Source: Acidobacteriota bacterium (GTDB taxonomy: Bacteria > Acidobacteriota > Terriglobia > Acidiferrales > UBA7541). Taken from it: a stretch of DNA of 64,000 nucleotides. The stretch is taken from positions 1-64,000 of the forward strand of contig QHYJ01000026.1 of the NCBI GenBank assembly GCA_003223255.1, given 5' to 3'. Shown in pieces: positions 22,998 to 26,439 of this stretch. The position numbers were made by a program, and so were the translations under genes. The notes under the pieces are model-generated. The model was not told where the DNA came from and ran no database searches. It saw only the letters and a program-made list of their open reading frames with translations. The first letter of the stretch is position 1. Every line of letters begins with the position of its first letter.

Positions 22998-23204
22998 GTG
23001 AATAAAGAACAGGGTACCGTGAAGTGGTTCAATGCCAGCAAGGGCTTTGGGTTCATCCAGCGCCAGAGCGGTGAGGACGTTTTCGTCCATTTCTCCGCCA
23101 TTGTGGCTGATGGCTACAAGACTCTCAACGATGGCCAAGCGGTTGAATTCGAAGTGACCAAGGGTCCGAAAGGACTGCAGGCCACCAACGTACAGCCCCT
23201 CTAA
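22998..23204 (+). CDS. Cold-shock domain protein (CspA family)
   Basis: [30 protein letters not shown]. Confidence 0.97.
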
Positions 23205-23250
23205 TCTGGCCTGTCGGCAGACAGGTTTCGCTTCACAAGAAACAAGAAAA

Positions 23251-23278
23251 GCGGCGCGCTCCGGTGCGCCGCTTTTTT
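23251..23278 (+). terminator. Rho-independent terminator after the cold-shock gene
   Basis: GCGGCGCGC-TCCG-GTGCGCCGCTTTTTT. Confidence 0.9.
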
Positions 23279-23330: not shown

Positions 23331-24506
23331 CTATCGGACCGGCACCTCCAGTTCCAACGCGCTTCTTGACGAACGGTCTTTAAGAAAGCCGCGTGCGGCG
23401 AGTAATTCCGCGTTTAAGAGCGCGGCTCCCGCTGCGCCGCGCACCAAATTGTGCGAGAGCAACGTGAGCTTTACGTCATGCAGTGGGCACTCCCGAATCC
23501 GGCCGACGACCGCTGCCATCCCTTCTCCCGCTTCCACGTCGCGTCGCGGCTGCGGACGATTCTCTTCATCTACGACAACCACCGGATGACGCAACGCCGT
23601 CGGCAGGGCAGCCAACTCGCCGTCCACTTCAAACGTGCGCAGCGCTTGGCGAACCTCTTCCAGGGAAGCGATTTTTTTCAGCCCAATCGATACACATTCG
23701 AGGTGTCCATCCAGTACCGGCACGCGATTGCAGTGCGCGCTGATACCCAGCCCCGCCTCGATAAAACGGCTGCCATCCCACTTACCCAGGAGCTTTTGCG
23801 GTTCCGCCTCCATCTTTTCTTCTTCGCCGCTGATGAACGGCACGACGTTGCCCTGAATATCCATCGACGCTACACCGGGATAACCTGCGCCGGAAATGGC
23901 TTGCAGCGTCACCACGAAAATTCGCTCCAGCCCAAACGCGTCCGCCAGCGGCTTGAGCACCAGCACCAGCCCGGCCGTCGAGCAATTCGGGTTCGTCACG
24001 ATGAAGCCTGTGTCATATCCACGGTTTTTCCGCTGCACGGGAATCGCATCGAGATGTTTGGCGTTCACTTCTGGAATGAGCAGCGGCACGTCTGGACCCA
24101 TCCGGTGATTTCTCGAATTGCTAACCACCGGATAGCCCGCGCGCGCAAAATCTTCCTCGACCGGCCCCGCGACGGATGAATCCAGGGCGGAAAAAACGAA
24201 ATCGCAATCGAGCGCCGGCTCGACGCCTTTCACGACCAGGTCGCGCGCCACTTCGGGAATGGGTGATTCCAGGTGCCAGTGAACCGCTTCGGCATAGCTC
24301 CTGCCTGATGAGCGTTCCGAAGCGGCAACTTCATTCAGCTCGAACCAGGGATGTTCCGCAAGCAGCCTTACCAGACGCTGACCGACGATGCCCGTTGCGC
24401 CGAGGACCCCGGCGCGCCACTTTTTATCAAGGTTCTTAGCGCGGGTTTTTTGTTGCTGTCCCTTCTGCGCTGCGCCATTACTGTGGTTGTGAGCTTTCGG
24501 GCTCAT
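23331..24506 (-). CDS. asd: Aspartate-semialdehyde dehydrogenase, archaeal/fungal-type
   Basis: AGVLGATGIVGQRLVRLLAEHPWFEL, active-site TNPNCSTAGLVLVLKPL; ATGA overlap with upstream gene. Confidence 0.93.
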   Translation of the reverse strand: MSPKAHNHSNGAAQKGQQQKTRAKNLDKKWRAGVLGATGIVGQRLVRLLAEHPWFELNEVAASERSSGRSYAEAVHWHLESPIPEVARDLVVKGVEPALDCDFVFSALDSSVAGPVEEDFARAGYPVVSNSRNHRMGPDVPLLIPEVNAKHLDAIPVQRKNRGYDTGFIVTNPNCSTAGLVLVLKPLADAFGLERIFVVTLQAISGAGYPGVASMDIQGNVVPFISGEEEKMEAEPQKLLGKWDGSRFIEAGLGISAHCNRVPVLDGHLECVSIGLKKIASLEEVRQALRTFEVDGELAALPTALRHPVVVVDEENRPQPRRDVEAGEGMAAVVGRIRECPLHDVKLTLLSHNLVRGAAGAALLNAELLAARGFLKDRSSRSALELEVPVR

Positions 24507-25543
24507 GCTGCACCTCCCGAGGGAAGCGCGCTGGAAAACTCAACAGGGGGTCCGATCCGCGTGCCGCGTGCTTGTGGATTGAACGTATTGCGCACCCACA
24601 CGACCATTTCGCTTTCTGCGGCCAACGGCAGCACTTTGGGGTGCAACACCTTTGCGCCGCTTGCGGCGAGGGCGTGCGCCTCGTCGTAACTCAGTTCATG
24701 CAACAATCGTGCTTCCGCCGATTCCTGGGGGTTCGCCGTATAGATGCCATCCACATCCGTCCAGATCACCAGTTCATCAGCGTCCACCGCATAAGCCACG
24801 AGTGCCCCGGAGAAGTCTGAGCTGTTGCGGCCTAGCGTGGTAATGCGGCCGTCAGGCGTAGCCCCGATGAACCCGGTCACGACCGGCACGACGTCCTCCT
24901 TCAGAAGGGGAAGAAGGATCCTGCGCCCCCGCTGCTTGCTTTGCTCCAGGTGGGGTTGCGCGTCGCGAAAGGTGTCGCAGGTCAGCACGAATTCGGAGGA
25001 AGTCACGGGCACGGAAGCGACTTCCAGCTTTTCCAGGGCCGCCGCGAAGAGCCGGGCGCTAAACCGTTCGCCAAAAGAGGCCAAGCGGTCGGAAAATTCG
25101 GCGCTTGCTACGCCGTGTCCCCAACCCTCCACCTCGTGCTGCAGGTCGCGGCCGAGGGGTTGCAACTCGCGGAGCATGCGGCGCTCCGTTTCTTCGTCCA
25201 GCCGCAAATTACCGAGCACCTCCAGGTGTAGTTCCAGGACAACTTCCGCTTCCCGCCGTGCTTGGGGCAGCTTGCCTGCGGCCAGCGCTTTTTCAATGGA
25301 CAAAAGGCGGTCCGTCACGCCTTTCATGGCGGAAACCACGACCGCGACCTTGGAAACCTGTGCGGCCTCGCGCACTAGCCCGGCCGCATGGAACATGCGT
25401 TCCGCCCCTAGCAGCGAGCTTCCACCAAACTTGAACGCCACTACCTTGCCGTACCGCTTACCGACCCCGCCGCTGCAAAGCGCCGCGCATTGGCTTAGGG
25501 CGGGGCTTTGTTCTGCTTCTTCCTGTACGTTTTCCTGATTCAT
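24503..25543 (-). CDS. lysC: Aspartate kinase, catalytic domain only
   Basis: VVAFKFGGSSLLGAERM, GFIGATPDGRITTLGRNSSDFSGALVAYAVDADELVIWTDVDGIYTANP; 346 aa, ends after the kinase domain. Confidence 0.93.
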   Translation of the reverse strand: MNQENVQEEAEQSPALSQCAALCSGGVGKRYGKVVAFKFGGSSLLGAERMFHAAGLVREAAQVSKVAVVVSAMKGVTDRLLSIEKALAAGKLPQARREAEVVLELHLEVLGNLRLDEETERRMLRELQPLGRDLQHEVEGWGHGVASAEFSDRLASFGERFSARLFAAALEKLEVASVPVTSSEFVLTCDTFRDAQPHLEQSKQRGRRILLPLLKEDVVPVVTGFIGATPDGRITTLGRNSSDFSGALVAYAVDADELVIWTDVDGIYTANPQESAEARLLHELSYDEAHALAASGAKVLHPKVLPLAAESEMVVWVRNTFNPQARGTRIGPPVEFSSALPSGGAA

Positions 25544-25604
25544 GGCCTGCGCTCCTGGTCTGGTATTCCCAAGTCCGGTGGCTGGAGCGTCTCTGGAGCG
25601 GGCC

Positions 25605-25647
25605 TAGAAGAAGAAACCCACCGCCAGGATCGCTTCCGGCGGTGGGT
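25605..25647 (-). terminator. Attenuator-type hairpin between leader ORF and aspartokinase
   Basis: Minus strand ACCCACCGCC-(12 nt)-GGCGGTGGGTTTCTTCTTCT: 10-bp perfect stem (25616-25625 / 25638-25647) plus T-rich run. Confidence 0.8.
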
Positions 25648-25667
25648 CAGAAACTTTTCTTAGCTTG

Positions 25668-25781
25668 CTAGCTGTTTCTCCCATCGCCCGAAGCGGTCTT
25701 AGTCTTCTTCATAGTCGTAGTCGAGGTAGTCGACATGGGCGACTTGGAGGTAATTCGCTTCGTGGCGATGGACATAATCAC
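25668..25781 (-). CDS. Candidate leader peptide for attenuation of the aspartokinase-asd operon
   Basis: GTG (25781) or ATG (25775) start, AGGA 7 nt before the GTG; MIMSIATKRITSKSPMSTTSTTTMKKTKTASGDGRNS*; not in the supplied ORF track because it is short. Confidence 0.7.
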   Translation of the reverse strand: MIMSIATKRITSKSPMSTTSTTTMKKTKTASGDGRNS

Positions 25782-25965
25782 AAAGACATCCTACCACGCC
25801 TCGGGCCGGATGAAAAGGCCATTTTCGCGGCCCTTTACTGATAGGTGTTCTCGCCTTAGACCGGCTGTCTCCACGCTGCGTTCTAAGCGCAAAATTGGAA
25901 CATAAGCGAGGTCGCCACCGAGGGTTCTGTTTCACCGCAGGAGCCCGATTCGGCAGATCCTCGAT

Positions 25966-26439
25966 TTGCAGATCCGCATGAGAGAGCAAAGTCAGCCGAT
26001 GCGGCAATATCCTTTCAAACGCATCCCGGTAAGGGCCGCTGTACTCCTGCTGCTGCTCGGGGTGGCAGGACTGGCGACGATCGCGAAACAGAGCCAATAC
26101 CTGCCCAGCTCGAATCCTCTTCACCGGATCTCGAAATCCGCCAAGATGGAGTTGCTCCATCCGCCGGTGGACTTCATCCCTGCCCAAAGTTACCTGGTTT
26201 CCAGAATTGTTCCGCCGCAACCCGAATTCAACTCCACACCTCTGGCCCGGTCCGAGCAGCCTACACATGGTGAGATCGGTCTAAGAGTTTCCCCCCAACA
26301 CCGCGCCCCACCCACCCTGCTCGCCCAGGACGACTGCCGCACGCGACAAAGAATCTTCCACCCAGGTTCTTTCGGCGGGCCAACGCGCTGCAAAGCAGAA
26401 GAAAGGAGTTCGTGGCATGGGGCAAATGGTCAAATGTGA
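25966..26439 (+). CDS. Possible small membrane-anchored/secreted hypothetical protein (start probably 25981 or 25999)
   Basis: ORF with hydrophobic VRAAVLLLLLGVAGLATIA; C-terminal end overlaps the next gene start. Confidence 0.4.
   Translation: MQIRMREQSQPMRQYPFKRIPVRAAVLLLLLGVAGLATIAKQSQYLPSSNPLHRISKSAKMELLHPPVDFIPAQSYLVSRIVPPQPEFNSTPLARSEQPTHGEIGLRVSPQHRAPPTLLAQDDCRTRQRIFHPGSFGGPTRCKAEERSSWHGANGQM

Follow-up and report, generated by a model that had tools for sequence, protein, structure and literature searches.

A probable threonine attenuator with a predicted leaderless leader mRNA before an aspartokinase–asd operon of Acidobacteriota

The thrL leader of Escherichia coli encodes a peptide rich in threonine and isoleucine and carries a terminator before an operon that starts with aspartokinase; control is exerted by ribosome stalling. 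The acidobacterial leader described here resembles this system (Rfam RF00506, Thr_leader) in its Thr/Ile-rich peptide, its terminator, its aspartokinase-first operon and, presumably, its use of a stalling ribosome as the sensor. It differs in several respects. The RF00506 covariance model gives no match at E ≤ 1, or even at E ≤ 10, in keeping with an earlier suggestion that the element arose independently of thrL. The acidobacterial operon consists of an aspartokinase without ACT domain and of asd, lacks hom, thrB and thrC, and is not a thrABC operon. Unlike thrL, moreover, its leader is predicted to be leaderless, and it uses a different antiterminator, with the stop codon in the apical loop.

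A leaderless design is known from the trpL RNA of Sinorhizobium meliloti, whose 5′ end is the ATG of the leader ORF (PMC7298713). The acidobacterial leader is predicted to share that design; trpL, however, is Trp-specific and alphaproteobacterial, and no sequence relation is expected. In mycobacteria, leaderless Cys-rich sORFs regulate downstream genes via Cys-dependent ribosome speed (Canestrari et al. 2020, cited in PMC9031893). As summarized in the citing paper, these polycysteine sORFs are a close functional parallel, in another phylum, to the Cys leaders considered below. Genome-wide terminator screens have predicted attenuators in Acidobacteria, almost none of them with an associated function (Naville and Gautheret 2010; PMC2965389), whereas functions and a shared scaffold are assigned here. 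Our literature search found no description of the family; the survey of Lopatovskaya et al. 2010 (cited in PMC4833913) could contain single predictions. Leader-peptide attenuation as a mechanism is already known; the reusable leaderless scaffold looks new.

The leader ORF, its promoter and its operon

Within the window, that is, the whole stretch of 64,000 nucleotides analysed, the operon and its upstream elements lie as follows.

25811–25816, minus strand: weak −35-like hexamer TTTTCA, 17 nt upstream of the −10, its position conserved as TTynnn (a weak consensus of 34 upstream regions)
25788–25796, minus strand: extended −10 element TGG TAGGAT (consensus TGnTAnnnT), invariant in 34/34 leaders
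25668–25781, minus strand: leader ORF, 37 codons from GTG 25781 or 35 from the in-frame ATG 25775, ending at TAG 25670–25668
25695–25730, minus strand: control codons TTSTTTMKKTKT, the last 12 codons 5′ of the antiterminator, with 4–8 Thr in 34/34 genomes
25552–25556, minus strand: Shine–Dalgarno sequence AGGAG of aspartokinase, read from the sequence and conserved in the leader alignment
24503–25543, minus strand: aspartokinase, 346 aa, the amino-acid-kinase catalytic domain alone, starting at ATG 25543
23331–24506, minus strand: asd, aspartate-semialdehyde dehydrogenase (TIGR00978/NF006416, PF01118+PF02774)
23247–23276, minus strand: terminator-like hairpin 3′ of asd, from the terminator scan only

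The start of asd overlaps the stop of aspartokinase (ATGA), and the operon, of two genes, probably ends at the hairpin at 23276–23247. An ACT domain is lacking in the aspartokinase: its match to TIGR00657 ends at position 287 of 442, PF00696 is its only Pfam domain, and two orthologues from the genus are built in the same way. The named proteins nearest to it come from Acidobacteria ‘gp2’ metagenome-assembled genomes and from Candidatus Acidiferrum typicum. Also in this region is a cold-shock protein gene (68 aa, window 22998–23204, plus strand), overlapped by a sub-threshold match to the cspA thermoregulator RF01766 (22906–23278, plus strand; 50.7 of 78 bits, E = 1.1e-10).

The leader peptide, (V/M)IMSIATKRITSKSPMSTTSTTTMKKTKTASGDGRNS, contains 9 Thr, 5 Lys, 4 Met and 3 Ile, together 21 of its 37 residues; both coordinates and composition agree exactly with the first-pass annotation, which had also proposed looking for the ORF upstream of orthologous aspartokinases. 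The leader and its terminator precede the orthologous aspartokinase–asd operon in 34 of the 36 genomes of the genus (Candidatus Acidiferrum group, Acidobacteriota): the window's own genome, 32 recovered by DNA search, and one (G005) added by covariance model R1. The ORF is open in all 34 and spans 30–42 codons. The leader was not found in G015 and G021 (63% and 77% complete), where the orthologous aspartokinase is missing too. Three other genomes (G002, G008 and G020) yielded no orthologue of the aspartokinase, and there the leader stands directly before asd; the element is therefore tied to the aspartate-semialdehyde branch rather than to one gene only. At the loci L056, L062 and L065 the ACT-less aspartokinase has apparently been lost and the Thr attenuator kept directly before asd.

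Is the ORF translated? Internal indels come in multiples of three in 83% of cases within the ORF, versus 2% between its stop and the terminator. An excess of third-position substitutions was sought in the ORF alignment and none was found, third positions changing no faster than the others; the coding evidence therefore rests on indels, frame and composition. An overlapping frame with Asp and Tyr codons (VDYLDYDYEED, within a 189-aa ORF at 25699–26268) was rejected, the other two frames containing stops in 26–27 of the 34 leaders. Each leader carries 6–14 Thr codons (34/34 genomes). Upstream of a conserved ASG the mean is 8.7 Thr, versus 2.3 (maximum 2.9) in shuffled leaders, and the genus-wide residue shares are Thr 33%, Ser 20%, Ile 13% and Lys 11%. 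It is the composition of the leader peptide, as judged from the alignment, that is maintained, and not its exact sequence.

How might ribosomes reach this ORF? In 34/34 genus leaders TGnTAnnnT ends 6–10 nt 5′ of the first in-frame ATG or GTG, and in most members of the wider scaffold family (see below) the spacing from −10 to start codon is 6–9 nt. This geometry predicts a leaderless leader mRNA, with the first transcribed base no more than about 3 nt from the start codon. The leader promoter was missed by a scan for the sigma-70 consensus and was recognised by alignment alone. No Shine–Dalgarno sequence was read between the −10 and the start codon in the listed leader sequences, in contrast to the conserved AGGAG of aspartokinase. 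The AGGA at 25792–25789, formerly taken for the Shine–Dalgarno sequence of the leader, sits inside the −10 hexamer TAGGAT (25793–25788) and is probably not transcribed. Judged by their conservation in the genus and by the comparison with shuffled leaders, the features of the leader are far from chance.

Terminator and antiterminator

Three further elements, all downstream of the control codons, make up two alternative folds.

25674–25695, minus strand: antiterminator 5′ strand CGCUUC-G-GGCG-A-UGGG-AGAAAC, from folding and pair counts, with the stop codon in the apical loop
25631–25654, minus strand: antiterminator 3′ strand GUUUCU-GA-CCCA-C-CGCC-G-GAAGCG, from folding and pair counts, including the core 5′ arm of the terminator
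25605–25648, minus strand: intrinsic terminator, a 13-pair stem (25648–25615) with GAAGCG in its loop, then TCTTCTTCTA; conserved in 34/34

In the core of the terminator, 20 nt past the stop codon, ACCCACCGCC (25647–25638) pairs with GGCGGTGGGT (25625–25616), and TTCTTCTTCT follows. The hairpin had been correctly placed before, but at 13 pairs its stem is longer than described. Its tail, TTTCTTCTTCT, is an imperfect U-tract, which counts against reading the element as an attenuator.

Two alternative pairings had likewise been pointed out, AGAAAC (25679–25674) with GUUUCU (25654–25649) and CGCUUC (25695–25690) with GAAGCG (25636–25631). Both are present. They are not separate, however: between them GGCG (25688–25685) pairs with CGCC (25641–25638) and UGGG (25683–25680) with CCCA (25646–25643), so that all are parts of one continuous antiterminator of 20 bp. 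According to the folding models this antiterminator sequesters the 5′ arm of the terminator, and the two folds are mutually exclusive. The antiterminator of the window is calculated at −31.8 kcal/mol (z = −5.9 versus shuffles); across the genus the values lie between −22 and −37 kcal/mol, and every genome save one has z below −3.4; the values of the terminators lie between −17 and −29 kcal/mol. The consensus for the genus is CGCUUC-n-GGCG-n-(G)UGG-A-GAAAC with GUUUC-CAA-CCCA-C-CGCC-n-GAAGCG.

Do the genomes preserve the pairing itself? Covariation had been proposed as a check on both helices, and both display it. In the genus alignment of the antiterminator 95% of cells are paired, versus 32–52% when the strands are slid, and double changes occur at three pairs; in the terminator 97% of cells are paired, and an A–U pair shows a repeated compensatory change to G–C, in 3 genomes. 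Among 54 aligned family members the antiterminator has 42 double-change cells versus 20.8 in shuffles, and the terminator 9 versus 1.1. Alignment column 7, the degenerate third base of a Ser codon, faces an unpaired base and varies freely, whereas its paired neighbours are nearly fixed, the pattern that a constraint by the RNA fold would produce. Comparison among genomes thus establishes the ORF, its Thr bias, both helices, the promoter element and the linkage to the genes.

What would a translating ribosome do to these folds? In the folding calculations, a ribosome that has reached the stop codon masks the antiterminator strand, and the terminator is the sole structure left to form. If the ribosome is held back by at least four codons from GCT, an antiterminator of −31 to −33 kcal/mol is complete before the terminator has a 3′ arm. 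Two results count against an attenuator: neither a 1:2 pause hairpin nor an anti-antiterminator hairpin could be clearly made out, and at equilibrium most ribosome placements leave the terminator as the preferred fold of the full leader. Antitermination must therefore rely on the order of synthesis. Classical attenuators likewise work by order of synthesis.

We propose the following mechanism. RNA polymerase would begin on or beside the start codon of the leader, and the 5′-terminal AUG or GUG would take up a ribosome. When Thr-tRNA is plentiful, the ribosome would advance to the UAG, which lies in the antiterminator's apical loop, and cover the antiterminator 5′ strand; the 13-pair terminator would then form and transcription would end near 25605. 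When Thr-tRNA is scarce, the ribosome would stall in the Thr run with its leading edge short of CGCUUC. The 20-bp antiterminator could then form before the 3′ arm of the terminator is made and sequester the 5′ arm, and the polymerase would read into aspartokinase–asd.

The amino acid sensed

Computation and comparison together find what characterises the attenuator class: an ORF rich in codons for an end product, an intrinsic terminator and a mutually exclusive antiterminator. We conclude that the aspartokinase–asd operon is very probably preceded by a transcription attenuator that responds to threonine through a translating ribosome, on a leader mRNA predicted to be leaderless.

Might lysine and methionine be sensed as well, with stalling at any of the three giving readthrough? 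The first-pass annotation, in which an aspartate-family attenuator responded to Thr and Lys and perhaps also to Met, took this view. The window would permit it, with 3 Lys and 1 Met beside 7 Thr among the last 12 codons, and aspartokinase–asd also supplies lysine and diaminopimelate (DAP), a signal that would make sense in this clade, no homoserine dehydrogenase having been found in the window's genome (see below). The other leaders tell a different story. Within the control stretch Lys is absent from 8 of the 34 and Met from 22, while Thr never falls below four; the constant Lys of the leaders belongs to a KR near the N-terminus, outside the control region. Distant members of the family that precede aspartokinase or homoserine dehydrogenase (L198, L199, L201 and L267) are Thr-rich too. 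We therefore keep the aspartate-family attenuator and its response to Thr, set aside Lys and Met, and consider sensing of several amino acids unlikely. Isoleucine is a likely secondary signal in the genus: it is missing from the last 12 codons in only 2 of the 34 leaders, one of them that of the window.

Could the terminator instead be constitutive or Rho-independent, the sORF peptide or the released short RNA acting in trans and any regulation in cis being incidental? The attenuator RNA and leader peptide of S. meliloti trpL can act in trans (PMC7298713). Here, though, the C-terminal tail is conserved as RNA and not as peptide (CUUCUGGAGGAC is read as CLLED and CUUCUGGCG as SSG), and the leader tracks the operon even where aspartokinase is absent. 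We judge this account very improbable, while noting that a role in trans could coexist with attenuation in cis. A ligand-binding riboswitch or T-box with the terminator as its output would also give strong, mutually exclusive folds and long-range pairing, but can practically be dismissed: no Rfam riboswitch or T-box matches even at E ≤ 10, no conserved unpaired core exists beyond the helices, the stop codon and the terminator loop, and the codon bias is conserved with indels in triplets. The Rfam search, which covered the window (to E ≤ 10) and the paralogous loci, likewise returned no attenuator family; its miRNA matches at E ≤ 10 were rejected as chance hairpin matches.

One finding on the pathway counts against the threonine attenuator. 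Homoserine dehydrogenase was not found in the window's genome (G000, 97% complete) with two models, PF00742 and NF004976, and PF00742 is missing from 19 of the 36 genomes of the genus (this one and 18 others), 13 of which are at least 90% complete; the step from aspartate semialdehyde to threonine is accordingly in doubt. ThrC-family matches are present in all these genomes. Either the homoserine dehydrogenase goes unrecognised or this clade has another source of homoserine. The window's genome also has, at another locus (G000:C356), an aspartokinase that does carry ACT domains, and thus two such enzymes. Since the one behind the attenuator lacks the domain, the attenuator may be its main end-product control.

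Similar leaders with other codons

Covariance model R1 also matched loci with other leaders, at E from 1e-3 to 1e-10. A second model, R2, built on the antiterminator structure from 54 sequences, was searched against the genus and 396 Acidobacteriota genomes. Downstream genes are given by their NCBIfam names and specificities are read from the leader peptides; the two match as listed.

Thr leaders before aspartokinase: the genus; genus g28 (L066, L067, also without ACT); family f11 (L198, L199, L201, L206)
Thr leader before homoserine dehydrogenase: L267
Cys leaders: before CysD, CysH, CysM, a sulfonate-binding protein, a nitrite/sulfite-reductase-like protein and a 3-mercaptopyruvate-type sulfurtransferase
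Trp/Tyr/Phe leaders before DAHP synthase: L277, L271; the same gene, by sequence, at L189, L191, L196 and L197
Leu/Val/Ile leader before dihydroxy-acid dehydratase IlvD: L204
L179:3836–3944 (minus strand), L195:2828–2924 (plus strand), L276 (minus strand) and L277 (minus strand): paralogues in the window's own genome, on the same scaffold
L258:1501–1611, minus strand: remote match with a Met/Cys-rich leader (MKCNGTGTLVYMCCMAMPMRGPSALGGMLM) before O-acetylhomoserine sulfhydrylase, a possible Met attenuator
L269:1501–1596, plus strand: remote match whose leader contains CWW, before anthranilate synthase TrpE, a candidate Trp attenuator
L265:1059–1146, plus strand: remote match with a poly-Asn leader (e.g. 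MIGIANISNQNNFNNNNNNNIRPP) and a terminator-like hairpin directly before asparagine synthetase A, a possible Asn attenuator
L266:1501–1588, plus strand: poly-Asn leader, similar by sequence, before asparagine synthetase A

The window's genome carries one Thr member (C141), three Cys members (C191, C259 and C201) and one aromatic member (C175); its paralogues are three Cys leaders (before sulfurtransferase, CysD and the nitrite/sulfite-reductase-like gene) and one Trp/Tyr leader (before DAHP synthase). The Thr-leader scaffold also occurs before an ACT-type aspartokinase, and some matches precede genes without a named role (e.g. L215 and L247). L300, L304, L311 and L314 are candidate members, mostly with short Cys-containing leaders; the large ORFs that follow them resemble carboxypeptidase-regulatory/TonB-receptor proteins at their start. 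Outside the class, R2 gave weak matches at L270, L272, L274 and L275, which have no cognate leader and were taken as chance; matches on the opposite strand, in which the palindromic terminator is read backwards, were dropped.

Are these leaders related by descent? The scaffold is read in different frames, as CLLED in the Thr leaders of f11 and as SSG in the Cys leaders, which points to an RNA that was inherited while its codons were re-specified. We think it more probable than not that an ancestral leaderless scaffold (CUUCUGGCG..GGG..variable inner helix with stop codon..CCCACCGCCAGAAG..GGCGGUGGGUUUUUU) has been copied within Acidobacteriota and re-specified by swapping only the leader codons and the inner helix, as a modular cassette. 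The remote members (Asn, Met and DAHP synthase outside the class) may be convergent. If the cassette is real, attenuators for threonine, cysteine, aromatic and branched-chain amino acids, several per genome, have come from one scaffold within one phylum. Attenuators diverge fast, and their duplication and re-tuning are for that reason rarely visible; homology of the scaffold across specificities would make duplication and re-tuning by codon swap visible here. The covariance models R1 and R2 are a direct means of testing these ideas.

In these soil Acidobacteriota the aspartokinase operon appears to be switched on when threonine is scarce, by a tiny ORF and competing hairpins. Allosteric feedback may here have given way to control of transcription, as the pairing of an ACT-less aspartokinase with a conserved Thr attenuator suggests. 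The hosts are mostly uncultured, and a regulatory family with matched specificities would allow their amino-acid needs to be read from sequence.
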